Made by a program: the position numbers and the translations under genes
Source of the DNA: Isoptericola sp. BMS4
Lineage (GTDB): Bacteria > Actinomycetota > Actinomycetes > Actinomycetales > Cellulomonadaceae
Length of the DNA: 64,000 bases
Direction of reading: 5' to 3'
NCBI RefSeq assembly: GCF_011634835.1
Contig: NZ_SIRP01000001.1
Span: forward strand, 3,096,970 to 3,160,969
In this document: in pieces, positions 26,626 through 42,161 of the stretch
Layout: the number at the start of each line of letters is the position of its first letter
Position numbering within the stretch: position 1 is the first letter of the stretch
The notes under the pieces: generated by a model
Told to the model about the DNA's origin: nothing
Database searches by the model: none
Seen by the model: the letters and a program-made list of their open reading frames with translations, nothing else

Positions 26626-26775
26626 CTACCAGCGCCCGTGGCGCGGGCGCGGCTGGCAGCGCGGGCAGCTGAAGGAGGAGCGGTTCATGAACTCGTCGCG
26701 GCGCACGGGGGTGCCGCACCGCGGGCACGGCTCGCCCGCGCGGCCGTAGACGGCGAGGCCACGGGCGAAGTAGCC
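26626..26775 (-). pseudogene. stranded C-terminal end of mutM (fpg)
   Basis: The minus strand encodes 49 residues that match the end of formamidopyrimidine-DNA glycosylase: [20 protein letters not shown], then the FMNRSS block, the second Cys pair and a PRPRHGRW end. The zinc-finger cysteines are CPRC and CPRC. Codons are GC-rich like the host. Upstream of GYFARG the similarity stops abruptly and no start is present. The intact mutM 14.6 kb away ends with a different 44-residue tail, so this is read as the original tail left behind when the island entered. Confidence 0.8.
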
Positions 26776-26861
26776 TCCCTTCCCAAGATTGACGCATTGA
26801 CCCTTCGAGAGCCGATCGAGGGAACATCTTCCCAGGTCAGAAGCTGTTTCCAACAGTATCC

Positions 26862-27320
26862 TTAGCCAGCGACCGGGGCCCAGATCGGGCCGAGCGCATC
26901 GAGTCTCGGACTTGACTGTATGCAGGGCCCGTCGAGGGGCGCACCGGTGTATCGACTCCGGTTGCACACTCGTTGCCTACGCTGTCGATCCACTGCCCCT
27001 GGATCGCCTTCGACGGGCCCCCGGTCACGTATGTGATCCAGGAACACCTTGCGGATGTCAGCATTCTGTTCGTCTGACAGCGGCACGGCGGCTTCCCGGA
27101 TCCTCCGAACGTGCTCCTCGTGGGCGGTCCAACCGAAGGCATCATTCAGGTCGCCGACGCGGATCAGCGTCTTGAACACGCGACGTCCGTCGCTGCCGAC
27201 CACCTTCTCGGTGCGCGAAGGAAGGTCCCCCTGCCACATGCGCCGCCGGATCGCCTGAACGCTGCAGCGGTGACGCGCCGCCGCGGCGGCGACATCGATC
27301 AGTTCGTCTTCGGGCCTCAT
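26862..27320 (-). CDS. helix-turn-helix protein, excisionase/MerR-like N-terminus
   Basis: 152 residues. Residues 1-60 look like a winged HTH ([20 protein letters not shown], then a wing [21 protein letters not shown]), as in small MerR- or Xis-like DNA-binding proteins. A conserved-looking [20 protein letters not shown] follows near residues 77-96. The remaining 55 residues are Arg/Pro-rich and may be a non-native extension. It starts at ATG 27320 and is divergent from the XRE gene. Placed near the island's left end, it could be a recombination directionality factor, but that is a guess. Confidence 0.55.
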
Positions 27321-27438
27321 GTCTGCTCCAGTTCTCTCAGGTGCCCGGAGCAGGACTCGATCACGGTCGCGCCCTCGGGCACGCAGGTGTGACTGATAGT
27401 CCGTGGACTCATCGTCATCGTATCGAAAACGTTGACGT

Positions 27439-27660
27439 ATGAGTGTTCTGGCGCATCGCATCGCGTTCGGCGAGCGCCTTCGCGATCTGCGGCAGGAGCG
27501 CGGCTGGGCCTCTCAGGAGGCCTTCGCGCATCACGTCGAGCTCGACCGCACCTACATCAGCGGGCTGGAACGCGGACGCCGCAACCCAACCCTGGACGTC
27601 ATCGTGAAGCTCGCACACGGGCTCGACGTGACGCCCTCTGAACTCCTCGCCACCCTGTAG
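27439..27660 (+). CDS. XRE-family HTH regulator
   Basis: 73 residues consisting almost wholly of one Cro/C1-type HTH (FGERLRDLRQERGWASQEAF, then TYISGLERGRRNPTLDVIVK). It is the size of a typical restriction-modification controller (C) protein or small phage repressor. A GTATC-NNN-AACGTT motif lies at 27420-27433, directly against the start codon, so it may bind there and control itself. It is the only plus-strand gene of the island. Confidence 0.85.
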   Translation: MSVLAHRIAFGERLRDLRQERGWASQEAFAHHVELDRTYISGLERGRRNPTLDVIVKLAHGLDVTPSELLATL

Positions 27661-27662
27661 TA

Positions 27663-27906
27663 CTACAGCCGTAGATCGCGACCGTGACCTGCGGTGATGT
27701 GTCTACGGAATCGCGCGGTGCGGGCTTTGGTCAGGATGAATTGCAGCAGCTCCTCGACTGCGCCAGACCCCACAAGGAGCGCGTCGTGCGCGCTCACGTC
27801 GATCGCACTCGGCTGTGACTATCGCTCCACTTGCGCCGCAGCTCCTCGCGGGCTTCGTCCGGTGTGGCCTCGCCGGCCAGGACGCGGCAGACGCTGTACA
27901 CGGCCC
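27663..27906 (-). pseudogene. decayed partial copy of the neighbouring antitoxin-like gene
   Basis: The minus strand encodes RVLAGEATPDEAREELRRKW, which mirrors RVLTGETSPEDAREELHRKW of the gene just upstream (27923-28606). It has no start in its frame and ends at a TGA (stop at 27796). That stop overlaps a GTG that opens a 44-residue reading (27663-27797) containing VEELLQFILTKARTARFRRH. The second reading may be the end of a former coupled gene or chance. No other homology is recognised. Confidence 0.45.
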
Positions 27907-27922
27907 TGGTCGGCCAGGGCAG

Positions 27923-28606
27923 CTACGTCACGGACGACGAGCGAGAGACCCGAGAGCGCGATCGTCGGATCTCGACGACAGGGGGCGTGGTCCCAACCGT
28001 CGACGCACGGCGAGGGTCCGCGGGGTCGCCGAAGATGAAGCGCGCGGGGCGGCCCACACGGATTGGAGCGTTGACGAGCCCCAAGAGAGGGCGCGTCTCG
28101 CCGTTGCGACGGAGCGGGTGCGTCCCGTCCGGATACGAGTGCCCCGTGTCCACCGACAACGGGATGACCACCCGCTCGTCGCCGTCCAACAGCAGCTGAT
28201 AGTGGTCACCTGATTCGGTCGAGAGCACCCAGGAGCCACCCTCGTCGACGTCGAGCCGGTCGCGGGTCTCGAGCTCTCTGCGGATCGGCATGTCCGGGTC
28301 GCTCTGGCCGCCGCCCCACTTCCGGTGCAGCTCCTCCCGTGCATCCTCCGGCGACGTCTCGCCGGTCAGGACGCGGCGGGAACGGTCCATGGCCTCCCCG
28401 CGCGGCTCCTCACATTCGAGCCGGTGACCGGCGCGGATCAGGGCCAGCTCGTCCTCGATGCCAGCGTCGTCGGGTGAATTGGTCGTCCTGACATCGCCTG
28501 CGCCACGCACGGCTTTCAACCGCTCAACTTCTGTCGCGTACGCGGGGTCGGTCTCCCGGCGCTCGCGGACGAACTCGTCGTGGTTCTTCAGGTCCGTCAG
28601 CTTCAT
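27923..28606 (-). CDS. unrecognised protein with antitoxin-like N-terminus
   Basis: 227 residues. The start MKLTDLKNHDEFVRERRETD resembles the first helices of HigA/XRE-type antitoxins, but no HTH follows. Near residues 78-98 is RRVLTGETSPEDAREELHRK, reminiscent of the short helical motif of VbhA-type antitoxins. The C-terminal half (GSWVLSTESGDHYQLLLDGD, then ...PARFIFGDP) looks like a small beta domain. The last ~17 residues are Arg/Ser-rich and may be a frame artefact. The ATG has GAGGAG 8 bases upstream. Function unknown; possible role as an antitoxin or inhibitor. Confidence 0.6.
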   Translation of the reverse strand: MKLTDLKNHDEFVRERRETDPAYATEVERLKAVRGAGDVRTTNSPDDAGIEDELALIRAGHRLECEEPRGEAMDRSRRVLTGETSPEDAREELHRKWGGGQSDPDMPIRRELETRDRLDVDEGGSWVLSTESGDHYQLLLDGDERVVIPLSVDTGHSYPDGTHPLRRNGETRPLLGLVNAPIRVGRPARFIFGDPADPRRASTVGTTPPVVEIRRSRSRVSRSSSVT

Positions 28607-28666
28607 GATGAGCACTCCTCGATCTGGCTGAGCGTATCAACAGTAAACGACCTGAGAGCAGTCAGG

Positions 28667-31600
28667 CTAAACAAGAACCCTCACGGTCTTACGGCGCTTG
28701 ACGCCATTCTTGACGATCTCAATGCGCTCAGCCTTCTCGAGGTGCTTGAACACCGTCTCGGCGGACGACGCACTGTTGACAGCGGCGGCATAGTCAAACG
28801 TTGCATCAGGCCCAGCCGTGAGCTGGTTGTACGGTTCCCCCAGGGAAGCGAGGATGCTCACGACATCGTCGTCGGAGAGGCCCTTGGCCAGCACCAGCTG
28901 GCGCATGACGGATTCCGCTGACTTCGTGACGCGTGCGATTCTCCGGATCTCATCCGAGGGCAGTTTGATCCGGTTCTTGTTGGCGAAACAACAGGCCGCA
29001 CGTAGCGAATGTTCATCGTCATCGGGAACGTACTCCGAGAGCTTGCCCACGACGGTCTTCTTCAGGCCGTCGTCGATCGAATCGCCCTCAAGGAACTCGG
29101 CAACGAAGCCCTCGACGATCTCAGGCTCGATGAACCTATCGACGCCCTTCGATACCTTGAACGCCTCGGACATGGCGTTCCACCCACCAGGCGCGAAGTG
29201 GGCGAAGGTCTCGAAGTCGTCGTCGAAGAGCCCTGCTTCGAGTCCATGGGCGAGAAGCTGATCCTTGCTGGGCTCAACCGGTGTGAGATCGAAGCCTTCC
29301 TCAGGGACAACCTGGCTGGCCAGAGCCACACGGGTACGTGCAGGCAGATGGGCCGAGGCGTTCAGAACCTTGATCGCGAGCTTCGCACGCTCGTCGTCGC
29401 CGACCTCCTCGACCTCCAACAGCTCGACCGGTCCGGAGTCGTCCGCCGAGGTGAGGAACGACGAGAGCGGTTGGTCGATGTCGTGCACAGCCTCGTACGA
29501 CGCAACGTTGGCTGTCGAGCACCTCACATGGTTTGCGTCGACGAGGAACGGCCACATCGTCTTAGGCACGTCGTTGAGCGACGAGACCTTCAGCGTCTCT
29601 GCGCCGCCGTCGATCACACTGTGCAGCTGCTCTTCCGTCCAGGCCTCCCCCTGCTCGTTCAGTACATCGACGAGCACCTGCTCGGACTGGACAAGACAGC
29701 TGCTTGCATCGTCCGCCTGCATGGCTACCAGGTAGTCCGCAATCCGCGCCTTGCAGTGCTCCCACACCTTCGGGTTCTTCCGGACCTCGTCGAGCGTCGG
29801 TACTTCGTCGATCCCGAGCGCCAGCTTCAGATTCGACACGCTGATGTCGTACATCCGAGCCCCGACGATGCGGTCTCGGAGCGGTTCGCTCAGAGCAGCC
29901 AGGTTGGGAACGACCAGATCAACAACCTTAAGCACCTCGAACAATCGCTCCGTCGTGTCATCGGCCTGGGGCCGCTTCACGGCGGTCAAGTGCGCATGGG
30001 ATGACCTGATCAGCTCGGACGCGTGCTCTCCGAAGTCGTAGGAGTCTGCGTGCTGCGCGCCGAGCAGCGCGGCATCGAACAGGCCGATACGAGTCTCTTC
30101 GTCGGGCAGCTCTGTATGAGCGGCCAGGTACTCGAAGACGTTCGCCCATGGGTGTCGCGCCAGCATCTCAACGAGACGCTCTGCGGCCACACCGGGCGTG
30201 TTCAGGAAAGCACTGAGGAACTCCCGTACCTGGTCGCTCTTCTGGTGGGCGACGATGAACGCGATCAGCCTCTCGGCGTCAGCACGCCGCTCGCGGAGAA
30301 GGAAGTCAGCCACCTCGATATTCAATGCGCTCACTGTGTTCGTGAAGTCGTCCGGGACCTGTGCCATCAGGTTGTTCAGAGCGTTCTTCGACGTGAAGTG
30401 ATAGTCGAGATACATCTCGCTAGGCTGGACGCTGTGGTTGTAGAAGTGAGCGACGTCAACACCGGTGAACTTGCCGTAGAAAATCGCTGAGTACTCCGCG
30501 AAGTTTCGGGTGATGAATCCCTTCCGAACCAGATCACGTGCGAGCTCAGAGCAAATATTTCCTTCGATCAACTGATCGAACGGAATCCTGTCGCTCGGAA
30601 CGCGTTCGTATCGAGCAAGGTCGGCGAAATCAGCACCACGAAGCATCGAGACGTCGTCATCATATTGAGCCATGACACCAGCGAATTCCTCAGGCGTCGG
30701 ATCTACCCAGTGTTCTGCGTGCCTCAATTCTGGGAAGAGCCTGTCAATTCGGGCCGCATCAACTGACGTCCTCTGATTGTTTGGGTACCGGAGACTGAAT
30801 GCGCAGGTTTCAGCGACCAGCGCCCAGAACTCCACGTCTTTAGTCTCGCCGAGCGTGAATGTTTGGTCGCCGACCAAGATGACAACCTGGTTGTCGTTGT
30901 ACACACTCACGAACATGTTCTTCATGTCCTTCAACCGCTCACCAAGCACTGCCGCAGTCTTGTGCCGGAGATTGCGTGTCTCCTCGACCCGGTTTCTGGC
31001 CCGACGTCGCGACTGCAGGTATTCGATCAGCGCGCGGACCTCGTCTCGGTGGAGCCGTTCGAGTTCGTCGAGAGTGCTGGTTCGCTGGGCGATCTTCTCG
31101 AAGTCCGCCATGTGGAAGTTCTTGTACACCACCAACGCGAACAAGTGATCGGCAGTCATTGCCGGTGCGGGAGTCTTGGTCCAAAGCAGGCGCTCGACGA
31201 ACACTGCGAACTCGTTGCAGATGTTGATCATCAAGCGCATGTCCGTCGTGTGCTTTGCGACGAGGTCCACCAGTGGACGCGAAACGAAGTCGTCGGGAAA
31301 ACCCAATTCCTTCAGCGCTTCGGCAAGATGGTCACGCGCGTTCCGGTGCGAGAGGAAGGGAACGATCGGGATGACCAGTTCAAAGAACTTGGTGCGGTTG
31401 GCCCGCCGCACGGCCTCGGCCGCGAGGTCAGGCTTCGACTCGACGGCCCTCGCGGTGGCGTCGGCCCTCTTCTCGTCGTCCGCTTCTCCGGTCGGCGTCC
31501 CGTCAACTTTGGGCGCTTCCTTCGCGCCGAGCTGCTCGAACAGGCTGTCTTTGATGGCGTAGATGAACCGCAGAGGCCGATCCTTGTTCGCCCACTGGGC

Positions 31601-32401
31601 CGAGGCGTTCACGAGGGTGTTGAGCTCACGGAGGGAGTCGAAGATTTGCGGGTCGTCGAAGCGATCCAGGTCTTCGAAGATCACGAACTCAGGATTGGCC
31701 TTGTCAAAGAATGCGACGATCTCGTCGAGGAAGCTGTCGAAGTAGGTGCTTGGGCTCTCGTCCAGTGCGATCTTGGTTCCAGCAGTCGCTACCTCGGAGA
31801 CAATCCGATCCCCGACCAGCCATCGGAGCGACCACACAACTCCCACCATGAGCACGAAGAACACGAGGATGAGACCGACCTGCGTGGGCACGCTCGCCTG
31901 GGCTCCTGGCCAGTCAGCGGGAGGCTGCACGCCGAGCAACCACAGGAGAACAAGCGTCGCACTCGAGACACCGAGCGCCTGCCACAGCGCGCGCCACTTG
32001 GTGAGCGGGTTTCGGCGTGCAACTCTGGAACCGCGGAGCCGTCCAGGCTTCAGCCGGTAGACGAGTTGCTTGACGAGCTCTTTCTGGATCCGATTGGTGA
32101 GGTCCTCGTCGTCATCGTCGGGCCCGAGCGTACTGATGCTGATCCGAACCGTCTTCGACTTGTGATTCTCTTCGAACTGGTCAAGAACGCTGGACTTGCC
32201 GACGCCGTACCTGCCGGTCAGCGCGATGTTCCGGTTCCTCTTCTCCTGGACGGCCTCCTCGAGGTGCCGCACGTAGAGGTCGTGGTGATCCCCCTTGAAA
32301 TCAGGGGCAAGAGTTCGGAGTTCGATCTTCTTCGAGGCGTCCGAGTCCTTCACCCCGGTCTCCGCCCCCTCGTCAGGTTCCTCATCACTCTGCTTCGTCA
32401 T
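28667..32401 (-). CDS. membrane P-loop NTPase (KAP/YobI-like), 1244 aa
   Basis: Walker A is TGRYGVGKSS (residues 62-71) and Walker B is FVIFEDLDRF (239-248). Between them lie two membrane helices (about 144-158 and 175-196), an arrangement found in KAP and YobI-type NTPases, whose ATPase domain is split by transmembrane segments. Residues 300-330 are charged. The remaining ~900 residues are helical, with no recognised catalytic motif, and may be a sensor or scaffold. It starts inside the stop of the XRE gene (ATGA), which in turn overlaps hsdR. Codon use is less GC-rich than in housekeeping genes. KAP-like NTPases occur in several anti-phage systems, so a defence role is inferred. Confidence 0.8.
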   Translation of the reverse strand: MTKQSDEEPDEGAETGVKDSDASKKIELRTLAPDFKGDHHDLYVRHLEEAVQEKRNRNIALTGRYGVGKSSVLDQFEENHKSKTVRISISTLGPDDDDEDLTNRIQKELVKQLVYRLKPGRLRGSRVARRNPLTKWRALWQALGVSSATLVLLWLLGVQPPADWPGAQASVPTQVGLILVFFVLMVGVVWSLRWLVGDRIVSEVATAGTKIALDESPSTYFDSFLDEIVAFFDKANPEFVIFEDLDRFDDPQIFDSLRELNTLVNASAQWANKDRPLRFIYAIKDSLFEQLGAKEAPKVDGTPTGEADDEKRADATARAVESKPDLAAEAVRRANRTKFFELVIPIVPFLSHRNARDHLAEALKELGFPDDFVSRPLVDLVAKHTTDMRLMINICNEFAVFVERLLWTKTPAPAMTADHLFALVVYKNFHMADFEKIAQRTSTLDELERLHRDEVRALIEYLQSRRRARNRVEETRNLRHKTAAVLGERLKDMKNMFVSVYNDNQVVILVGDQTFTLGETKDVEFWALVAETCAFSLRYPNNQRTSVDAARIDRLFPELRHAEHWVDPTPEEFAGVMAQYDDDVSMLRGADFADLARYERVPSDRIPFDQLIEGNICSELARDLVRKGFITRNFAEYSAIFYGKFTGVDVAHFYNHSVQPSEMYLDYHFTSKNALNNLMAQVPDDFTNTVSALNIEVADFLLRERRADAERLIAFIVAHQKSDQVREFLSAFLNTPGVAAERLVEMLARHPWANVFEYLAAHTELPDEETRIGLFDAALLGAQHADSYDFGEHASELIRSSHAHLTAVKRPQADDTTERLFEVLKVVDLVVPNLAALSEPLRDRIVGARMYDISVSNLKLALGIDEVPTLDEVRKNPKVWEHCKARIADYLVAMQADDASSCLVQSEQVLVDVLNEQGEAWTEEQLHSVIDGGAETLKVSSLNDVPKTMWPFLVDANHVRCSTANVASYEAVHDIDQPLSSFLTSADDSGPVELLEVEEVGDDERAKLAIKVLNASAHLPARTRVALASQVVPEEGFDLTPVEPSKDQLLAHGLEAGLFDDDFETFAHFAPGGWNAMSEAFKVSKGVDRFIEPEIVEGFVAEFLEGDSIDDGLKKTVVGKLSEYVPDDDEHSLRAACCFANKNRIKLPSDEIRRIARVTKSAESVMRQLVLAKGLSDDDVVSILASLGEPYNQLTAGPDATFDYAAAVNSASSAETVFKHLEKAERIEIVKNGVKRRKTVRVLV

Positions 32402-32619
32402 TCTGCGTCCGTCTGCTGGTCCTTCAGCTCGAGCCTCAGGCCGAGCGCCTTAGCGATGCTGGCGATGGTCGACGTCGTCACGTCGTTGTTCGCCTCGACG
32501 CGCGCGATCGTGGGGCGGGACACCCCGGCCTTCTCGCCGAGCTCCGTCTGAGACCACCCCTTCTTCTTGCGTGCGTCGCGGATGACGTCGCCGAAACCAG
32601 CCTGCTCTGCCTCGTTCAT
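32398..32619 (-). CDS. XRE-family HTH regulator embedded in the hsd operon
   Basis: 73 residues with one Cro/C1-type HTH (IRDARKKKGWSQTELGEKAG, VSRPTIARVEANNDVTTSTI) and the tail IASIAKALGLRLELKDQQTD typical of HigA-like or C-protein regulators. Its ATG overlaps the hsdR stop and its stop overlaps the NTPase start, both as ATGA. It probably tunes expression of the operon. A dyad with GTATC-NNN-AACGTT sits upstream of hsdM and is a candidate target. Confidence 0.88.
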   Translation of the reverse strand: MNEAEQAGFGDVIRDARKKKGWSQTELGEKAGVSRPTIARVEANNDVTTSTIASIAKALGLRLELKDQQTDAE

Positions 32620-35600
32620 CGCTCCAGCGCTCCCGCGTCGCTCGGCGGATCCTGCTCCCCATGGACCTGAGCATGAAGAGCATCTGCTGCGATGTCGGCG
32701 ATCTGATCGACGAACGCGGGATCGGTCATGTACGACTGGATCTCCTTCGACTCCTGCACGGTCTTGAACACGGCGAGGCCGACGGCGTTGCTGAAGCCGT
32801 CGGAGGCCTTCAGCTGCGCGACGGTATTGCTCTTCGCCATCGCCACGGCCTCCTCGTTCTCGTCGAGGAAGCCCCAGAGCGTCGTGATGAAGCCCGAGAC
32901 GCTCTCCGGGCGCACGTCGACGCCCTTGGCCTGGAACATCTCGTTGACCTTGTCGATGGCCTCGTCCAGCGGGCCGCGCGGCGGGGTCGTGGATGAGCCG
33001 TGCTCGCCGTCGAACCCCGGGAGCTCGAGGCCGTCGTCGCTGCCGGCGCTGAGCGAGTGGTCCTCCTCGATGGCCGACGGCACCAGCTGGACGCCGGTGA
33101 GCTGCACGCCCTCGAGGTAGCTGAGGTCGTAGCCGCCGTCGTCGAGATGGAGGTTGCGGTCCAGCAGCGTCGTGAGGATCGCGCGGCGGTGCAGCTCGGG
33201 ATCCTGGTAGTCGACGATCTGGCTGAGGAACTGCCAGGCGCTGCGGTAGGCGTGGACGTCCGCGCGGAAGCTCTTCAGCGCCTCGAGTCGGTCCTTGTCC
33301 TTGGCGAGGACCGCTCGACGGCGCTGCCCCGTCCAGCGGTTCTTGATCGGCGACAGAGCCCTGGCGATCGTCTCACCGCCTGCCTCGGTGAGGTAGGCAT
33401 CAGCGATGGCATCCATGTCGCTCTGGGTGTAGAGATCGGCGGAGTCCAGCCGCTCGCCGATCGTGTACAGCGCGTTGGGATCGACGTCGCCGGTGACGTG
33501 GGCGTCGGAGTAGTAGAGCTTGAAGTCCTCCTGGATACTCGCCGGCGTGTTCTTGAAGTCGACGACCATCGGGGCGCTCTTGCCCGGGTAGATGCGGTTC
33601 AGCCTGGACAGGGTCTGGACCGTCGCGATCCCCGAGAGCTTCTTGTCGACGTACATCGCCATCAGGCGCGGCTCGTCAAAGCCGGTCTGGAACTTGTTCG
33701 CGACGATGAGGACCCGGAAGATGCCCTCCTCACGGAAGGCCCTGGCGGCATCACTCCTGTCGTTCTCCGAGACCTCGGTGACAGACCGACCGGCCTCGTC
33801 GGTGAGCGCGCCGGAGAACGCCACCAGCGTGCTCATGTCCGTGTAGCCCTGCGCCTCGATGTAGGCGTTCATCTTCCGCGACCAGCCGAGCGCCTCCTGT
33901 CGCGTGGACGTGACGACCATGGCGCGTGCCTCGCCGTCGAGCATGTCCATGACGTTGCGCCGGAAGTGCTCGACGACGACCCGCACCTTCTGCGCGATCG
34001 CGGTCGAGTGCAGCTGGGCATAGCGGACGATGGCGGTGACGGCCTCGCCGGTGTTGACCTGGATCTCGGCGTCGGCGTCCTTGAGCGAGTTCTTCACCCG
34101 GAGGAACATGTCGTAGGTCGAGTAGTTCGACAGCACATCGAGGATGAAGCCCTCCTCGATCGCCTGCGCCATCGTGTACGTGTCGAAGGCCTCCCAGCGG
34201 CCGTCGCGCTCGGTGCCGAACAGACGCAGCGTCTTCGCCTTCGGCGTCGCCGTGAGCGCGACGAAGGTGATGTTGCTCGACGCGGCGATGGCGGAGTCCT
34301 TGGCGGCCAGAAGGTCCTCGGCGCTGATGTCCTCGTCCGGATCCACCTCGACGTCGACGAGGAGCTCCTTGAGCTTCTTGGACGCGGTCCCGGACTGCGA
34401 GGAGTGTGCCTCGTCGGCGACCACGGCCCAGCGCCGGCCGTGCAGCTCCTGGCTGTCCTCGATGAGCTTCATGACCTCGGGGAAGGTCTGCAGGGTGCAG
34501 GTGATGATGTGATCGCCCTCGAGCAGCGCCTTCTTCAGCTGCGGCGACTTCGCCCCGGACTTCTCGCCCACCGCGACGACGAGCCCCTTGCTCGACTGGA
34601 CGAGGTTCATGTCGTCGCGGATGTTCTCGTCGAGCACCGTGCGGTCGGTGACGACGATGACGGAGTCGAAGGTCGACTTCGAGTCCTGGTCCATGTGGCG
34701 GATCAGACGATGGCTGAGCCACGCGATCGTCTTCGTCTTGCCCGAACCTGCCGAGTGCCAGATCAGGTAGCGCTGACCCGGGCCACGGGCCTCGATGTCG
34801 GCCACGACACGCTCCACGGCGCGCAGCTGGTGGAAGCGCGGGAAGATCAGTCGGCCGTCGTCCTTCTTGCCCGACTTCCCCGGCTCGAACAGCGCGAAGT
34901 CCTTGAGGATGCGCATGAACGTCGGCCGCGCGAGGATCTCACGCCACAGGTAGTCGGTCGACGAACCGGTGGACGAGGGCGGGTTGCCCTCGTGGCCGTC
35001 GTCGCCCCGGTTGAACGGCAGGAACACCGTATCCTCGCCCTGCAGCTTCGTCGCCATGTACACGAGGTCGTTGGACACGGCGAAGTGGACCAGAGCACGG
35101 CCCGGCGCGAGCAGCGGCCTCGAACGGCCGGGCTTGCGGTCCTCCTTGTACTGCCGGATGGCGTCGTTGATCGACTGCGTGTTGTCGGTCTTCAGCTCGA
35201 GCGTGGCCACCGGGAGACCGTTGGCCGTCAGCACGACATCGATCGACTCGTTCGTCCTCGTGTCGAAGCGCACCTGCCGCAGGACGCGCAGACGGACCGC
35301 GTCCGCCGCCTCCAGGACCTCTGCCAGGTTCGGATTCGCCGGCGGGAACTCCATCATCGCCCCGAACCTCGCCGCCGGACGGCCGATCTGCGCGTAGGTG
35401 AAGCCCTTGCGCAGCGCCCCGAGCAGCCCGCCCACCGGGTGCCCCGTGGTCGGGTCCATCCTCGTGGCCTTCGCGAGCTCCTTCGTGATGTGCTGGAGCA
35501 GCTTGCGCTCCGCGTCGACCCGCTCGTCGCCGACGAGGTCCCCGGGGACGGCCTTCTCGTACTCCTCGGGGTACTGAGACGCCAGCCAGTACAGCGCATC

Positions 35601-35732
35601 GCCGGGCACCATCGCGAGGCCCACGTCCCAGCCGATCGGCTTGCCCTCATCCTCGTACAGCCAGCCGCGCCCGGCCAGCTCCGCGCAGAGGTTCTCCTCG
35701 AACTCGCGCTCCATCAGCTGGGCGTTGCTCAT
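32616..35732 (-). CDS. hsdR: type I restriction enzyme subunit R
   Basis: 1038 residues. The N-terminal PD-(D/E)XK nuclease has Asp165 in NESIDVVLT and ELK at 179-181. The SF2 motor follows with Walker A HSAGSGKT (326-333), DEAH at 440-443 and the LTATPK motif. A helical C-terminal domain binds the methylase core. HsdR translocates and cuts unmethylated DNA with HsdM and HsdS. Length is normal and no motif is missing. Start and stop overlap hsdS and xre by 4 bases each. Confidence 0.95.
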   Translation of the reverse strand: MSNAQLMEREFEENLCAELAGRGWLYEDEGKPIGWDVGLAMVPGDALYWLASQYPEEYEKAVPGDLVGDERVDAERKLLQHITKELAKATRMDPTTGHPVGGLLGALRKGFTYAQIGRPAARFGAMMEFPPANPNLAEVLEAADAVRLRVLRQVRFDTRTNESIDVVLTANGLPVATLELKTDNTQSINDAIRQYKEDRKPGRSRPLLAPGRALVHFAVSNDLVYMATKLQGEDTVFLPFNRGDDGHEGNPPSSTGSSTDYLWREILARPTFMRILKDFALFEPGKSGKKDDGRLIFPRFHQLRAVERVVADIEARGPGQRYLIWHSAGSGKTKTIAWLSHRLIRHMDQDSKSTFDSVIVVTDRTVLDENIRDDMNLVQSSKGLVVAVGEKSGAKSPQLKKALLEGDHIITCTLQTFPEVMKLIEDSQELHGRRWAVVADEAHSSQSGTASKKLKELLVDVEVDPDEDISAEDLLAAKDSAIAASSNITFVALTATPKAKTLRLFGTERDGRWEAFDTYTMAQAIEEGFILDVLSNYSTYDMFLRVKNSLKDADAEIQVNTGEAVTAIVRYAQLHSTAIAQKVRVVVEHFRRNVMDMLDGEARAMVVTSTRQEALGWSRKMNAYIEAQGYTDMSTLVAFSGALTDEAGRSVTEVSENDRSDAARAFREEGIFRVLIVANKFQTGFDEPRLMAMYVDKKLSGIATVQTLSRLNRIYPGKSAPMVVDFKNTPASIQEDFKLYYSDAHVTGDVDPNALYTIGERLDSADLYTQSDMDAIADAYLTEAGGETIARALSPIKNRWTGQRRRAVLAKDKDRLEALKSFRADVHAYRSAWQFLSQIVDYQDPELHRRAILTTLLDRNLHLDDGGYDLSYLEGVQLTGVQLVPSAIEEDHSLSAGSDDGLELPGFDGEHGSSTTPPRGPLDEAIDKVNEMFQAKGVDVRPESVSGFITTLWGFLDENEEAVAMAKSNTVAQLKASDGFSNAVGLAVFKTVQESKEIQSYMTDPAFVDQIADIAADALHAQVHGEQDPPSDAGALER

Positions 35733-36937
35733 GCGACTTCCTTCTTGCCGGTGACGACATCGGTGATAAGCGCCGCGCGACGCTCGAGGAGCAGGGACTT
35801 GAGATCAGCGACCTTCGCCAGCATGGCGTCGATCCTGCCGGTGACCTCGTCGAGGTGATCAACAGTTGCGCGTTGGATATCGAGACTGACTACTGGAATG
35901 CGCTGTTGTCCCAATTTTGATCGAGAAATGCGCTGGCGAGTCGAACCGCCTTGAAGACTCTCGATTAGAGTTCGGAATCGACCGCTGTTGAGAACATATT
36001 CGAGGTAGGCTGGGATCATCTTTTCCCGATCGGCGCGCACCACAGCAACATCGACTACCGTGATCGTGCGACCGAGTCCGGTTGGCAGAACACACGCTCG
36101 GCCAATTGGGTCCGGCATACGAGCGATGAGCACGTCACCAGGGACGACCTCTCTGCATGCAAGGCGGTCGAATGCTTCCTGGTTCACGCGACGGTCGGAT
36201 TTATCAAGGAACTTCCCAACGCCAATGTCCGCAAGCTGAAGTAGCCGAATATCGCCGTTCGGATCCTGATCCTTGCTCTCGACCCAGTCTCCGTCGAAGA
36301 AGTTCTCGGAGTTTGATGCAAACGCAAGCGGAACTGTCGAACCGTTGAAATGCTTGTCGACTGCCTCCATCACGACCGACTCGCGCCGAGCATTGAGTTC
36401 CCCTGCAAGCTCGTCCATCTTGCCCAGCATCGCGTCGATCTCGCCGGTTTCGCGGTCGAGGTAGTCGGCGATGGTGACCTGCTTCCTGGGCTCCGCATTA
36501 AAGAGTCGATGCTCCTGTACGAAACGCGGCGCGATGCGGCGAAGGTTGCCCACACCTTGAAGAGAATGTGCGCCTTCGTCGAGGAACGGCAGGCTCTGAG
36601 CGACGTAGCAGAGGTAGCGTGCGTCGACTCCCGGGCGTGGTCGAACGACATGTACCTCAGTTGTTGCGAGCCCGATCGTCGTGGGGATGTCCGCAACAAT
36701 CGACCGACCGGCTTCGAACGTCGGAGTGATCTTCGGGATGAGAACGTCACCGCGCCTGAACGGGGTGTAGCTCAGCTTCTTGGACCACGCGATCGTGCGG
36801 GAAAAGTCTGCCCGCCCACCGGGCCACACAGCTTCCAGCGGCATGAACGTCAGCTTCGCCCCCTCGTTGAGGGTCTGGAGCTCAGGCGTCGCCGGATTGA
36901 CCTCACCGTGCTTCCACAGCGGCGCAGTCTCACGCAT
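35729..36937 (-). CDS. hsdS: type I restriction enzyme specificity subunit S
   Basis: 402 residues with two target-recognition domains. Each is followed by a conserved helix: IADYLDRETGEIDAMLGKMD after TRD1 (near residues 155-175) and VDHLDEVTGRIDAMLAKVAD near the C-terminus. The near-repeat of these helices sets the spacing of the bipartite target. The target itself cannot be predicted. The second TRD (about 35860-36300) is clearly lower in GC than hsdM and hsdR, a sign of domain exchange. It overlaps hsdM by 8 bases and hsdR by 4. Confidence 0.93.
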   Translation of the reverse strand: MRETAPLWKHGEVNPATPELQTLNEGAKLTFMPLEAVWPGGRADFSRTIAWSKKLSYTPFRRGDVLIPKITPTFEAGRSIVADIPTTIGLATTEVHVVRPRPGVDARYLCYVAQSLPFLDEGAHSLQGVGNLRRIAPRFVQEHRLFNAEPRKQVTIADYLDRETGEIDAMLGKMDELAGELNARRESVVMEAVDKHFNGSTVPLAFASNSENFFDGDWVESKDQDPNGDIRLLQLADIGVGKFLDKSDRRVNQEAFDRLACREVVPGDVLIARMPDPIGRACVLPTGLGRTITVVDVAVVRADREKMIPAYLEYVLNSGRFRTLIESLQGGSTRQRISRSKLGQQRIPVVSLDIQRATVDHLDEVTGRIDAMLAKVADLKSLLLERRAALITDVVTGKKEVA

Positions 36938-38879
36938 CCCGATGCACCGCCTCGAACATCTCGCCGAGCTCGCTCATCAGCCTGGCGACGTCGGCGTCGA
37001 TCTCCTCGAGTGGCCGCGGCTCCTCGGGTACGTAGAAGAGCCTGGTGAACGGGATCTCGTTGCCCTCCTTGGCCTTCGAGACGTCCCAGGTGGCCCCCTC
37101 GGCGAAGGGCAGCACCTCACGCTCCATGTGCTCGTCGAGGTGTTCACTCCTCGGCACGCGCTCGGTGATCTTCCAGCCGTCGAGGAGCACCGGATTGCCC
37201 TTGCGGTCGACGGCGAGCGGCGCGTCGTCGTCCTGGACACCCATGGCCGAGGCGACCGCGTCGACAAGCCCGATCGGTGCCTTCAGCCCCTTCGTCTTGC
37301 AGCGCTGCTGGAAGGCGGCAGGCAGGCTGTTCCACACAAAGCCGTCGAGGCCGCGCATGATCTCCGCATGGTCCTCGACGAACGCTTTGTGCTCGCGCAC
37401 GGCGTCGACCGCGTCTTCGGAGAACACCGCGGCGAGGCGCGCCTGCTTGTAGACAGGCACGTCGCGGAACATGAAGTCCTCCTTCACCATGACGCGCGAG
37501 ATCGCCGAGTCGGCGTACTCGAACGCCTGATACGCCTTCAGCACCGTGTCGCGATTCGTGGGGCTCATCTCGCGGCGCTTGTCGCCCATGCCCTTGCGCA
37601 TGGGCTCCCACTGGTTGGTGGCATCGATGAGCTGGATCCTCCCGACGCGCTCGGGATCCTTGTCGGCGTCGAGGATCCAGACGTAGGTCGCGATGCCGGT
37701 GCCGTAGAACATCTGCGTCGGCAGGGCGATGATGGCGTCGATGAGGTCCTCGTCGAACAGCCACTGGCGGATGGCGTTGGGGCCCTTGTCGCTGCTGAAC
37801 AGCGGCGAGGCGTTCGAGACGACGGCGGCGCGGCCGCCCTGGCTGTTCTTGCCGGCCGGGCTGAGCTTCGAGGCGCAGTGCGCGAGGAAGAGCATCTGGC
37901 CGTCGCTCTTGGACGGCAGGCCGTGGCTGAAGCGGGAACCCTGGGTCTTCGCCTGCTCCTTGACCGACGAGTACTGGACCTCCCAGTCCATGCCGAACGG
38001 CGGGTTGGACAGCACATAGTCGAAGGTCTGGTCCGCGTACTCGTCGTGCAGCAGCGTGTCGCCGTGCTTGATGGCGTCGGGGCGGCCGCCCTGGATCAGC
38101 AGGTCGGCTTTGCCGAGCGCGAACGCTGAGGACATGAGCTCCTGGCCGTAGAGCGTGACGTCGATCTTCTCGTTCGTGCGTCGCAGCGCCTCCTGCGCGA
38201 TCAGCAGCATGCCGCCCGAGCCGGCCGTCGGGTCGTAGATCGAGCGGGCCGTGCTGTCGCCGGCCAGTGTGTCGTCGTCGTCCGCGATGAGGACGTCGAC
38301 CATGAGCTTGATCGCATCGCGCGGTGTGTAGAAGTTGCCGGCGGCCTTGCCCTTCTTGTTGAACGCCCGGTACATGACGTCCTCGAAGACGTCGCCCATG
38401 CTGGTGTCGCTGAGGCTGCCGGGGCTCAGGTCAAGCGTGGAGAAGTGCTTGACGACGGCGTGCAGGCGATTGGCGTCGGCGAGCACCTTCGCGCGCCGGG
38501 CGAAGTCGAAGGACACCCAGATGTCGGCGATGTTGTTCGAGAAGCCGTCGACGTAGCTCTTGAGGGACTTGTCCACGTTGTCGTCGACGGAGGCGATCGT
38601 GGCCAAGTCGAGCTTCGAGACGTTGTAGAAGCTGAGCCCGAATTTGTCCTTGACGGCGATGTCGATCAGGTGGTCCGGCATGCCGCCGAGCGAGTCGACG
38701 AACGCGGTGACCTCGGCCTTGGTGTCCGCGAGCATGCACTCCAGCCGACGAAGAACGGTGAACGGCAGGATGTAGTCGCCGTAGTCCTCCTCGTCGACGA
38801 CGTTGCGGAGGTACTTGTCTGCCGTGTCCCAGACGATCCTCGCGGTCGTCGTGCTACGTGCGCCGGTCTGCTCTGCCAT
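36930..38879 (-). CDS. hsdM: type I restriction enzyme methylase subunit M
   Basis: 649 residues, N6-adenine methyltransferase. An N-terminal HsdM helical domain (DTADKYLRNVVDEEDYGDYI) precedes the SAM motif I YDPTAGSGGML near residues 215-225 and the catalytic NPPF (SNPPFGMDW) near 292-295. The ATG at 38879 has AGGGA 9 bases upstream; a GTG two codons earlier is the alternative. It is the first gene of the five-gene chain hsdM-hsdS-hsdR-xre-NTPase and has the island's strongest promoter-like gap upstream. Confidence 0.94.
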   Translation of the reverse strand: MAEQTGARSTTTARIVWDTADKYLRNVVDEEDYGDYILPFTVLRRLECMLADTKAEVTAFVDSLGGMPDHLIDIAVKDKFGLSFYNVSKLDLATIASVDDNVDKSLKSYVDGFSNNIADIWVSFDFARRAKVLADANRLHAVVKHFSTLDLSPGSLSDTSMGDVFEDVMYRAFNKKGKAAGNFYTPRDAIKLMVDVLIADDDDTLAGDSTARSIYDPTAGSGGMLLIAQEALRRTNEKIDVTLYGQELMSSAFALGKADLLIQGGRPDAIKHGDTLLHDEYADQTFDYVLSNPPFGMDWEVQYSSVKEQAKTQGSRFSHGLPSKSDGQMLFLAHCASKLSPAGKNSQGGRAAVVSNASPLFSSDKGPNAIRQWLFDEDLIDAIIALPTQMFYGTGIATYVWILDADKDPERVGRIQLIDATNQWEPMRKGMGDKRREMSPTNRDTVLKAYQAFEYADSAISRVMVKEDFMFRDVPVYKQARLAAVFSEDAVDAVREHKAFVEDHAEIMRGLDGFVWNSLPAAFQQRCKTKGLKAPIGLVDAVASAMGVQDDDAPLAVDRKGNPVLLDGWKITERVPRSEHLDEHMEREVLPFAEGATWDVSKAKEGNEIPFTRLFYVPEEPRPLEEIDADVARLMSELGEMFEAVHRDA

Positions 38880-38913
38880 GCTCACCCGTCCCTGGTCGAT
38901 CGATGCCCGTTCA

Positions 38914-38933
38914 ATGTATCACGAACGTTACAT
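38914..38933. promoter_or_regulatory. dyad operator candidate upstream of hsdM
   Basis: ATGTATCACGAACGTTACAT has matching ends (ATGTA/TACAT) and an internal C/G pair, giving a partial dyad 35 bases before the hsdM start. It contains GTATC-ACG-AACGTT, which recurs as GTATC-GAA-AACGTT immediately before the XRE gene at 27439. It is a candidate site for one of the two XRE regulators. Confidence 0.4.
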
Positions 38934-39057
38934 CGGGTGGTGGACCACGGAGCAGATTGAGGCGTCTAGGGTGAGAAAGTTCATCCCGCGGTCGTTGTGC
39001 GGGGCGGGACAGCGCCGACTCCATCACCGGACCGCGCAGATCAGGAGTGAGGCCGCG

Positions 39058-39336
39058 TCACCTCAGCAGATCGAGGATGGTGGGCAAGTACTTGCGCACC
39101 TGCTCCCGGTCGCTCTCCTGCTCCTCGTCGGACAGCTCGTCGTACGGCGTCGACATCTGGGTCTCCCAACGCTGGGCGAGCTCAGCGGGCACCACAAGAG
39201 CCCCGTCCTCCCTCCGCTCGCACTGGTCGTGGACGTACCGCTGCCAATGCGCCCATCGTTCATGCTCGATCGCAGCGAGCCGGTCGACTGCCCGCGCACT
39301 CTCTAGCACCTCACGGATCTCGTCGTGGGAACGCAT
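39058..39336 (-). CDS. small RyR-like domain protein
   Basis: 92 residues. The core LAAIEHERWAHWQRYVHDQC followed by MSTPYDELSDEEQESDREQV resembles the RyR repeat (a Trp-rich helix, then a PYxEL-xEExKxxDR segment), which Burroughs and Aravind-type surveys place among possible ligand-binding domains of bacterial conflict systems. It begins ATGA-overlapped with the caspase stop, so it is translated with it. No enzyme motif is seen. Short RyR-like proteins also occur in phages, so an inhibitory or sensing role is equally open. Confidence 0.7.
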   Translation of the reverse strand: MRSHDEIREVLESARAVDRLAAIEHERWAHWQRYVHDQCERREDGALVVPAELAQRWETQMSTPYDELSDEEQESDREQVRKYLPTILDLLR

Positions 39337-40316
39337 CAGATCAGGTCCTGCTTCACAAGAGACCAGTAGTGCTGGCCGAGCGCTGTCAGTTCGCAAGACT
39401 TCGATTCCATCGCCGCGTGCCACATGTGCGGGGCGTCGACCGGGCGGACGAGGTTCACCTTCACCAGCGCCTGCAGCACGGCAAAGTCGGCATTCTTCGC
39501 GGGATCTGGAACCGGAGTCGAGTCCGGCTCGCGACCGGAGCGCTCAGGCTCGTAGGCGGGATCAAGCTGGAGCTCCGTCGTGGGCTGCTCGAACAACGTC
39601 GTGAGCTTCCGCAGATCCTCCAACTCAATCGGAGCGTCCGCCGTCCGGAGCGAGACGAACTTCTTCACGTTCGTCTTGAAGACAGGCCGCTGTGCCCACG
39701 GTCCGAGCGACTGGTCGATGTGCGCATAGACGCTGCCGGGCGTCACCTCGCCGACAAGGTTGCTGGCCGCGCCATTCAGTGCGTCCACGAGCAAGCGGGT
39801 GAAGACGCCCGATCCACCGCTCTCCATGGCGTACTGATCCGCCGTGGACGCCGTGAGGAGCGTGACGCCCTCCTTGATCTCAGCGATGTTCTTCCCTGCC
39901 GGGTTGTCCCCTGCCACGCCACCGTGGCAGCTGTCGAGGATGATCACCTTGTTCTTCGCAGGAGAACGATTGGCGAACGCCATGACCTCCGACAGCGACA
40001 GCCCGTCGTGCCCGTCGGCGCTATCGCTCGCGCACAAGTACCCACCGACCCCGTCGATGTAACCGTGCCCCGCGAAGTAGAACAGCGAGACATCCGCGTC
40101 GTCCTTGAACAGCTCTTCGACAGCCCCGCGCAGATCCGCGCGGGTCACAGTGGCGTGCGGACCGGTACCGACCAGCACCCGCGGCTGCGCGAAGTTGAGA
40201 GTGCCGTCAGCATGGCGGTCGAGCACGTTCTTGACGCTGTACGCGTCGCTCACAGCACCGCTGAGGGAGCCGATCCTGTCGTAGTGGTCGATACCGACGA
40301 CGAGGGCCTTGCGCAT
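39336..40316 (-). CDS. caspase-like (C14) protease
   Basis: 326 residues. The N-terminal caspase fold begins [20 protein letters not shown]. The catalytic His84 is in YFAGHGYID and Cys130 in IILDSCHGG, the classic dyad. Residues 220-326 form a separate helical C-terminal domain ([15 protein letters not shown] and [20 protein letters not shown]) that is not protease and could sense a ligand. Bacterial caspase-like proteins act in regulated cell death during phage infection. It starts 11 bases after the TIR gene and overlaps the RyR-like gene. ATG at 40316 is chosen because the conserved domain begins there. Confidence 0.9.
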
Positions 40317-40327
40317 CGCGGTGCCCT

Positions 40328-40699
40328 TCAGAGGGAGTCGATGAAGCCGGAGATGTTGGCATCGCTCCACGGCACGGTCCGGACCCCCGCGAGAAAGGTG
40401 CGGTCATCGGAGTACGCCCAGATCCCGAGGAGCGGCTTTCCCTCGTCCTTCGCACACTGGATCTCCCACTTCTGGCCCTCGGAGTCCAGCGAGCTGCTGC
40501 TGACGAGGGCGATCACTCCGTGGGAGCGCCGGATGCGCGTGCGGACCCTGTCCTTCCAGCCGGAGTCGTACGGCTCCTTTACTGACATGTCGATGAACTC
40601 GTACGGCGCGCGAGGGCCGAGCGACTGCCCCTTCAGGAAATCCCTCTGTCGCTCGTCCTCCATCGCGAACGCGACGAATACAACCTTGTTCTCAGCCAT
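40328..40699 (-). CDS. TIR-like protein (MTH538/DUF1863 type)
   Basis: 123 residues. It begins [20 protein letters not shown] and has [18 protein letters not shown] and [20 protein letters not shown], the pattern of the MTH538 TIR-like family that includes ThsB of Thoeris. The likely catalytic glutamate is Glu79 in KWEIQCA. Such TIR enzymes make cyclic ADP-ribose-type signals from NAD after phage infection. It is the first gene of the trio with the caspase and RyR-like genes. I recall a TIR plus caspase-like pair described as type IV Thoeris, which this matches in gene content. Confidence 0.85.
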
Positions 40700-41261
40700 G
40701 CCTGGCTCTCCTCATCGGCTCGAGCTGCGACGCCGGGGGGTCGCATCTGTGCTCGTCATCACGCTATCGAGCACCACTGACATTCGACGCCGATGGTACG
40801 GCGCGGCACGGATCAGACCCATGACCACGCCACAGATGTGACCGAGGACCTTGGGCCTCGCGCTGTCGCCTCCCGCCGGCAGCCTTCGGCTCGGACGCTC
40901 ACACATGACTTCGTTTAAGGGTGTATGTCCGGCGGCCCCGATATCAGCATGTGGTGCCCGCCGGCCGCCGCGACGAGGAGCGCGTCGACGGCCTCGCGCT
41001 GGCCGACGACGGTCGGGGCAACCGACGATTCCCGCGACCCTGCCGCGATCCGCGGACAACGCGATGGGGTTCGACATGATCTCCATCGCGTCGGGCACTA
41101 TCCACCTCGCTTCGCCGTCGCGCATCCCGACCCCTCCATCGTTCAACATGTCAACGTCAACGGGACGAGGAGTCGAACAGGACTCCGCCGAGGTCTCGAA
41201 CGCGACCTTCTCCCCGCCAACGGAGCGTCGCACGCTCGACAGCCGCAACGACCGAGTCGAC
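40700..41261. other. 562-base region between the TIR gene and mutM
   Basis: No intact gene is supported. The part nearest the TIR gene should hold its promoter. The middle carries the ComM-like fragment at 40915-41090. Bases 41091-41261 show nothing I recognise; several overlapping frames are open in this stretch, but none looks like a known protein. Confidence 0.5.
40915..41090 (-). pseudogene. fragment of a Mg-chelatase/ComM-type ATPase
   Basis: The minus strand reads PTVVGQREAVDALLVAAAGG, then HHMLISGPP, and stops (DIHP then TAA). This is the segment that precedes Walker A in ComM/YifB-type AAA ATPases (usual form VxGQxxAxxALxVAAAGGHHLL-x-GPPGxGKT). The break falls exactly where GTGKT should begin. 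No start is seen and the upstream frame is not recognisable. It is a truncated gene end, possibly marking an older junction inside the island. Confidence 0.5.
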
Positions 41262-42161
41262 CTAGCGTTTTCGCTGGCAGACCGGGCAAAAGTAGCTCGA
41301 GCGGTTCATGAACCGTTCGCGTACGATGGACGTGCCGCAACGTTTGCAAGGACGGCCATCCCGCCCATATGAGACAAGGCTCCGGGCAAAAAATCCGGAC
41401 TCGCCGTTGACGTTGACGTACAGGGCGTCGAAGCTCGTGCCGCCCTGTGTGAGCGCCTCGGACATGACCTCGGAGGCGGCATCGAGCACGCGGCGCACGA
41501 CCGGACGCGTCATGGTGTCCGTCGCGCGGGCGTAGTGCACACGGGCGCGCCACAGCGCCTCGTCGGCGTAGATGTTCCCGATGCCGGAGGCGATCGTCTG
41601 GTCGAGCAGCGCCCGCTTGATCCCGGTGCGGCGCCGCCGGACGGTCGCGACCGCCGCGTCGGCGTCGAAGGCGGGGTCGAGCGGGTCGCGGCCGACGTGC
41701 GCCACCGGCTCGGGCACGGCGGCGAGATCGCTGCCGCGGCCTCCCGGAGCGCCGTCGGGCGTGGGGACCAGGTCCACGACGGACAGGTGGCCGAACGTGC
41801 GCTGGTCGACGAAGTCGAGGAAGCGCGCGCCGGACGGGCTGTCGTCGAGGTGCAGCCGGGCCCGCAGGTGCGGGTGCGCCCACTCCCCCGCCACGGCCGG
41901 GTCGCGCACCAGGAGCTGGCCCGACATCCCGAGGTGCGCGAGCAGGGCGGCGTCCTCGCCCACGGGCAGCCACAGGTACTTGCCGCGGCGGGCGGCGGCG
42001 GTCAGCCGCCGGCCGCGCAGCTGGTCGGCGAAGCCCGCCGGGCCGCCCTCGTGCCGCCGTACCGAGTAGTCGCGGAACACCTCGACGTCGCGCACGACGG
42101 CGCCCACCACGAGGCGGTCCAGCCCGTCACGGACGGTCTCGACCTCGGGGAGCTCAGGCAC
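41262..42161 (-). CDS. mutM: formamidopyrimidine-DNA glycosylase with island-derived tail
   Basis: 299 residues. Fpg removes 8-oxoguanine and nicks the strand. Pro2 and Glu3 ([14 protein letters not shown]) form the active site; the Lys of RRGKYLWLP and a C-terminal zinc finger CKRC...CPVC are present, so it should work. From [16 protein letters not shown] (codon 256 on, base 41396) to the end, codons become AT-rich (TTTTTTGCC, CATATG, AAACGT) and protein similarity to host Fpg tails drops. The usual host tail is found orphaned at 26626-26775. The start overlaps the rnc stop by 8 bases, the conserved rnc-mutM order. Confidence 0.93.

Follow-up and report, generated by a model that had tools for sequence, protein, structure and literature searches.

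TIR signalling coupled to a caspase-like protease is a known kind of bacterial immunity: a TIR-caspase system, type IV Thoeris, in which an N7-cADPR signal activates the protease, was reportedly described by Rousset et al. in 2025. N7-cADPR is named as the signal of the one characterised type IV system in passages of PMC12847820. In staphylococcal Thoeris (ThsA-B1-B2), as presented in PMC12578639, TIR signalling is likewise combined with an accessory gene, there a second TIR that senses the capsid, and the effector is ThsA. In type III CRISPR systems, an immune messenger is controlled by host-encoded ring nucleases and sponges that have viral counterparts (e.g. Csx15; PMC13148439); these are unrelated proteins with a different messenger, and their likeness to the locus described here is one of role only. 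Finally, a preprint of May 2026 (PMC13232231) presents RyDEP, a mycobacteriophage RyR-domain protein that uses His75 and Asp117 to hydrolyse 2'/3'cADPR; in its pocket, Trp78 stacks against the adenine, while the phosphates are contacted by His100. According to the preprint, 2'/3'cADPR was bound by six of the eight phage PF02026 proteins assayed and cleaved by the DyoEdafos protein only, and no 2'/3'cADPR-hydrolysing protein was known before the phage enzyme; in the passages searched, 'type IV' does not occur, 'caspase' appears in one reference only, and N7-cADPR is not among the ligands tried.

The window, meaning the whole stretch of 64,000 nucleotides of Isoptericola sp. BMS4 DNA that was analysed, carries an adjacent TIR and caspase gene pair followed by a third gene, all with intact ORFs on the minus strand. 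The TIR gene (40328..40699; ATG at 40699, stop at 40328) belongs to the ThsB_TIR family and encodes a 123-aa putative signal synthase, while the caspase-like protease gene (39336..40316; ATG at 40316, stop at 39336) encodes a 326-aa C14 protein, the putative effector. The RyR-like gene (39058..39336; ATG at 39336, stop at 39058) is the last in the operon and encodes 92 aa. A gap of 11 bp separates the TIR stop from the caspase ATG, and the caspase stop and the RyR-like ATG overlap as TGATG; these coordinates bear out the three same-strand genes with 11-base and overlapping junctions that a first-pass annotation had proposed. On reading the sequence, Shine-Dalgarno-like purine-rich runs were seen ahead of the operon starts, and a consensus scan of 38800-41300 found no sigma-70-like promoter or terminator. 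Chance ORFs were ruled out, given that gene order and residues are conserved and the same three-gene order recurs across many phyla.

The first two proteins were readily placed. The TIR protein matched Pfam ThsB_TIR (PF08937) with 32.6 bits, above the cut-off of 21.2, and the PADLOC ThsB model with an E-value of 1.8e-6. Of 99 TIRs, 98 have a Glu at the position of its Glu79, which the first-pass annotation had picked out as part of a TIR pattern; the remaining one, in L071, is a TIR split across two frames. The second protein matched Pfam Peptidase_C14 (PF00656) with 61.5 bits (cut-off 21.4, E-value 1.3e-16), the PADLOC caspase model and, below cut-off, the NCBIfam family 'caspase, EACC1-associated type'; PADLOC had no model for the third protein. 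His84 and Cys130 were kept in all 103 caspases, which upholds the proposed catalytic dyad, while the helical C-terminal domain suggested alongside it was instead predicted to be a mixture of helix and strand. The AF2 model of the caspase (mean pLDDT 79.1) had the MALT1 paracaspase as its top Foldseek match, with an E-value of 3e-13. From its families and catalytic residues, the pair reads as type IV Thoeris, an already known kind and the one first proposed for it: the same adjacent TIR and caspase genes form one unit, and the catalytic residues are kept. What differs is the RyR-like third gene coupled to the pair. Our literature search, whose reach did not extend to the original type IV Thoeris paper, found no description of a RyR gene in TIR-caspase operons; type IV Thoeris and the binding of signals by phage RyR proteins are known, and the presence of a RyR gene in these operons is apparently new.

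The third protein matched Pfam RyR (PF02026) with 21.4 bits and an E-value of 3e-4, below the cut-off of 27.4. When members of the RyR alignment A2 were compared with PF02026, all 12 matched at E-values up to 1, the best being 1.1e-4. Against 14 canonical bacterial PF02026 domains from Bacteroidota genomes, hhalign gave a probability of 95.6 (E-value 1e-8), or 95.3 with the operon rows alone, and at most 1.1 in eight column-shuffled controls. A sequence profile of the third protein reached the PDB RyR1 chimera with a best E-value of 7e-5, a sum of weak stretches of which none was significant singly. A PF02026 search of the protein's own genome found no match anywhere, and the controls were likewise unmatched. 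The AF2 model of the RyR-like protein (mean pLDDT 96.5) has an all-helical core, with helices at residues 4-11, 14-38, 51-62, 70-81 and 84-91. Foldseek returned no RyR-fold match for this model at E-values up to 0.001 in PDB or BFVD, which either counts against the RyR fold or reflects what Foldseek can resolve in helical proteins this small. On profile comparison, the protein is a genuine though distant RyR relative. The RyR-like label in the first-pass annotation is thus retained at the level of profile homology, with a Pfam score below cut-off.

Canonical bacterial RyR proteins (PF02026; Bacteroidota loci L155-L177) have in common with the third protein an EHxRW motif and the C-terminal half. 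They differ in that their domains sit in long proteins (open frames of mostly 323-918 aa), whereas the protein here is a free-standing 92 aa, and in that the third protein has a longer middle stretch, without a conserved His there. An alignment of 93 rows, made up of 64 operon rows (loci up to L104) and 29 phage-contig rows, showed His25, Trp28, Trp57 and Leu68 to be invariant. Alignment A3 omits five of the 34 phage rows (L134, L135, L142, L144 and L147).

To place the trio among its relatives, the genomes of 84,980 species were scanned with the caspase alignment, yielding 485 relatives, of which the best 80, ranked by likeness to the window, were kept. In 63 of these best 80 of 485 caspase loci, the RyR gene comes straight after the caspase, a count that overstates the RyR share among all TIR-caspase systems because of the ranking by window likeness. 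That the third gene is unique to the window genome is ruled out by the same count; first taken to be new, it is instead a common part of the operons of one TIR subtype. Plasmids were searched by tblastn with the caspase, giving 76 records, of which 20, picked by hand, were opened. The window, two relatives of its order, these 20 plasmids and the 80 genome loci make up 103 loci, whose gene content was taken from all-frame profile scans and the gene table.

The subtype in question, TIR-A, is defined by score: it takes in the TIRs that reach 180 bits or more against an HMM made from 21 TIRs of the study loci, mostly of subtype A, and L071 was added to it by hand; L089 and L103 are labelled 'other' but look intermediate. 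Across the 103 loci, 77 had TIR-A with RyR, seven had TIR-A without it, 15 had another TIR without it, and none had another TIR with it; the remaining four had no TIR in the flank, and two of them carried RyR. Thinning to below 90% caspase identity left 82 representatives, distributed as 57 TIR-A with RyR, seven TIR-A without, 14 other TIRs without, none with, and four with a TIR-less flank. RyR was directly behind the caspase in 59 of the 82. When the 24 RyR-less loci were searched by tblastn, the single RyR-like stretch to emerge was a weak one in L101, a TIR-A locus, where it lies upstream of the TIR; the remaining 23 gave no match. In L048, the contig ends within the RyR gene.

The RyR gene is rare per genome: searches of a class, an order and a phylum each gave few matches. 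In the class of a Bradyrhizobium genome, the A2 search matched one of 385 genomes, that genome itself; in the window's own order, there was a strong match in three of 396 genomes, and in its own phylum there were four. One of the own-phylum matches (L113) adjoins a caspase fragment. Another of them is a RyR-like ORF of an actinobacterial genome (L114:1507-2007), which neighbours a lysozyme-like gene in a prophage-like setting. The first-pass annotation had considered that the RyR-like gene might stand beside unrelated genes in most relatives, and among plasmids the opposite was observed: 18 of 22 records with the gene adjoin a caspase match. Seventeen of these caspase matches cover 99-100% of the query, and one covers 90% without an annotated gene. 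The other four records comprise a caspase remnant, a rearranged TIR/RyR/caspase cluster, a run of subtilase, CHAT, TIR and RyR genes, and an unrelated archaeal context, which was the weakest match.

We compared the conserved residues of the third protein with the RyDEP pocket. By spacing and alignment, His25-x2-Trp28 and Asp76, the latter in a 'DR' motif, fit His75/Trp78/Asp117 of RyDEP. All 65 operon rows have the three residues; in the phage rows, His25 and Trp28 were kept in 28 of 28 and Asp76 in 27 of 28. The position of RyDEP His100, placed by spacing, is His in just one of the 65 operon rows and one of the 28 phage rows, and 48 of the 65 operon rows have no His at all between positions 37 and 75. 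Because the His100 equivalent is not conserved, the ligand or the binding mode may differ from that of RyDEP, and N7-cADPR, for instance, would be in keeping with such a change of ligand. RyDEP and the phage RyR anti-Thoeris proteins are thus comparable in being small members of the RyR family with the same pocket spacing, and phage homologues of the operon subfamily exist. The difference, besides the phosphate-contact His, is that RyDEP is a phage evasion gene, while the gene here belongs to a host operon and adjoins a putative signal maker.

Relatives of the third protein were found at 34 loci in IMG/VR, 33 of which had neither TIR nor caspase in the available flanks, which were short in 10 of the 11 loci checked for flank length; the exception, L117, has both. 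In the checked loci, the phage RyR genes neighbour tail sheath, terminase, primase/helicase and HNH genes, with PHROG matches of that kind for six of 10 neighbour proteins; a further neighbour weakly matched a nucleotide kinase. Among named phages, Microcystis phages carry a relative. MT835687 had been considered as a phage-borne operon and was rejected, being an unverified faecal clone with a TIR-caspase-RyR unit almost identical to the one in Sphingomonas plasmid loci. The standalone phage RyR genes (L115-L148 except L117) are candidate anti-Thoeris proteins.

The reading to which we give most weight, with confidence somewhat short of even, is that of a three-gene TIR-caspase operon in which the RyR protein acts as a host signal-binding brake that sets the threshold of the caspase. 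Phage infection would lead the ThsB-type TIR to turn NAD+ into a cyclic ADP-ribose-type signal, which would activate the caspase-like protease, so that cell proteins are degraded and the infection is stopped. The protein of the RyR/RyDEP family would be the host's binder of this signal, a sponge and possibly a slow glycosidase, holding it below threshold in healthy cells so that leakage from the TIR does not fire the lethal protease; it may also clear the signal once TIR activity ends. The signal, the killing and the ligand binding we infer from published relatives; the brake role is our own conjecture. The first-pass annotation had the caspase tail as the putative sensor and the RyR-like protein modulate or sense the signal. 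A signal-binding brake is favoured over an undefined modulator because the close phage-borne relatives are of the kind that binds or cleaves Thoeris signals. A brake would not be needed universally, since seven TIR-A representatives lack RyR in the available flanks and none of the 14 other TIRs has it. Gene order also speaks against a brake: antitoxin-like partners are commonly encoded by the first gene, and RyR here is the last.

TIR signalling that ends in cell suicide calls for a threshold. A host RyR protein encoded beside the putative signal maker is a testable candidate for a Thoeris off-switch, which would explain the phage RyR proteins, and the 59 representative operons are available for experiments. 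A broader proposal, less likely than not, is that most TIR-A type IV Thoeris operons encode their own brake, a RyR sponge or glycosidase tuned to N7-cADPR and equivalent to a ring nuclease, and that phage and host RyR genes form one exchange pool. If true, phages took over the host's off-switch, or hosts tamed a phage weapon. A host RyR off-switch would also suggest RyR domains as general binders of cADPR-family ligands, which is of relevance to animal ryanodine receptors.

The main rival to the brake casts the RyR protein in an activating role: as a sensor or adaptor, it would respond to infection or to a change in NAD/ADPR by switching on the very small TIR of 123 aa. The parallel is staphylococcal Thoeris, in which ThsB2 is recruited and activated by ThsB1 and two-TIR sensing has been published (PMC12578639). 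We consider an activating role somewhat unlikely. RyR does track the TIR subtype, accompanying TIR-A in 57 of 64 representatives and other TIRs in 0 of 14, and the RyR-linked TIRs are only 123 aa long, compared with mostly 128-145 aa in TIRs without RyR. Two of the seven RyR-less TIR-A representatives (L017 and L104) moreover carry a second TIR right behind the caspase. Yet TIR-A operons with neither RyR nor a second TIR exist (five of the 82 representatives), both are present in eight, and the conserved residues are those of the pocket of a ligand-binding fold. On the caspase tree, the RyR label changes seven times and the TIR type five times, giving three independent pairs of TIR type and RyR on supported branches, never contrary and too few for a test; the pairing is suggestive rather than proven, and may not be phylogenetically independent.

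A co-receptor or second effector, which would bind the signal and act on or with the caspase, for example by tuning its activation or choice of substrate, is a distinctly less probable role. It would suit the close junction of the two genes: all 59 representatives that have RyR place its start between -4 and +18 bp of the caspase stop, 27 of them with an overlap, although the rule for choosing starts, which accepted the earliest start codon met from 10 bp ahead of the caspase end, favours short gaps. Against this, caspases of near-identical layout work beside the 14 other TIRs, none of which has RyR, and in one case the partner of the RyR gene is CHAT and not this caspase. The latter is on a Sphingomonas parapaucimobilis plasmid (L109:1-2743), where subtilase, CHAT-domain, TIR and RyR genes stand in a row, possibly a TIR-CHAT system sharing the RyR gene. 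Because RyR there accompanies a TIR and CHAT, a different caspase-fold protein, its association may be with TIR signalling and not with this particular caspase.

It is very unlikely that hosts captured the RyR gene from phages, where it acted against Thoeris, and now use it as a Panoptes-like decoy or guard against phage RyDEP-like sponges. Decoy logic of this type has been published (PMC12657218), the phage-borne relatives are close, and operon and phage rows interleave on the RyR tree; the tree is, however, poorly resolved (six starred of 90 inner branches), direction of transfer included. Least likely of all is that this is not a cADPR-signalling Thoeris, the TIR being a plain NADase or something else and the RyR function unrelated: the TIR and RyR profile matches are weak to moderate and the case is built from sequence rather than biochemistry, but Glu79, the His/Cys dyad and the operon are conserved, and a TIR-caspase system with N7-cADPR has reportedly been published (Rousset et al. 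2025, through passages in PMC12847820).

Some representatives carry further genes around the trio. A metallophosphoesterase gene was found nearby in nine of the 82 representatives, all nine with RyR, and an extra TIR_2-type gene in 13, eight with RyR and five without. A five-gene version, in the order extra TIR_2-type gene, TIR, caspase, RyR and metallophosphoesterase, was observed in L011, L012, L014, L070, L071, L076 and L082. In three loci, a second, diverged TIR-caspase pair lies a few kb from the first (L034:6966-8377, L070:235-1763 and L071:223-1618), and the profile scan gave no RyR match beside this second pair.

The operon in the window lies within a genomic island of ~14.5 kb (26776..41272, limits approximate), delimited by same-genus comparison and seated in the 3' end of mutM. 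The mutM gene (41262..42161, minus strand) ends in a last stretch of ~130 bp (41262-41396) that repeat alignment identified as a diverged, island-side copy and one boundary repeat; the other is the displaced native mutM 3' end (26626..26775, minus strand), found by alignment to relatives. Of 17 relatives with mutM, five same-genus genomes were compared, and in all five mutM is contiguous with the sequence that the window has to the left of 26775. Segment 26626..26775 has 78-88% identity to the mutM end of four of these relatives as a separate segment, and falls within a longer match in the fifth. From these alignments, a displaced native end with an island-carried replacement end is an att-like arrangement. 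No integrase was seen on reading the ORF lists of the island.

Other defence genes share the island, all on the minus strand. A type I RM system, a unit separate from the operon, consists of the methylase HsdM (36930..38885; N6_Mtase and HsdM_N; PADLOC MTase_I, E-value 5e-201), the specificity subunit HsdS (35729..36937; PADLOC Specificity_I, 1.4e-49) and the nuclease HsdR (32616..35732; HSDR_N, T1R_D3-like; PADLOC REase_I, 3.9e-34). Beyond it lies a YobI-type NTPase gene of 1244 aa (28667..32401; YobI-ATPase, 3.9e-103; PADLOC Tmn, 9.4e-40), a Tmn-like candidate defence gene. The multilayer immune island with adjacent RM genes, as first suggested, was thereby supported, with the Tmn-like gene as an additional candidate member. 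At the island's left end, we also noted a small ORF that reads as an XRE-like helix-turn-helix protein (27439-27660) and a 230-aa ORF of no recognised kind (27923-28615).
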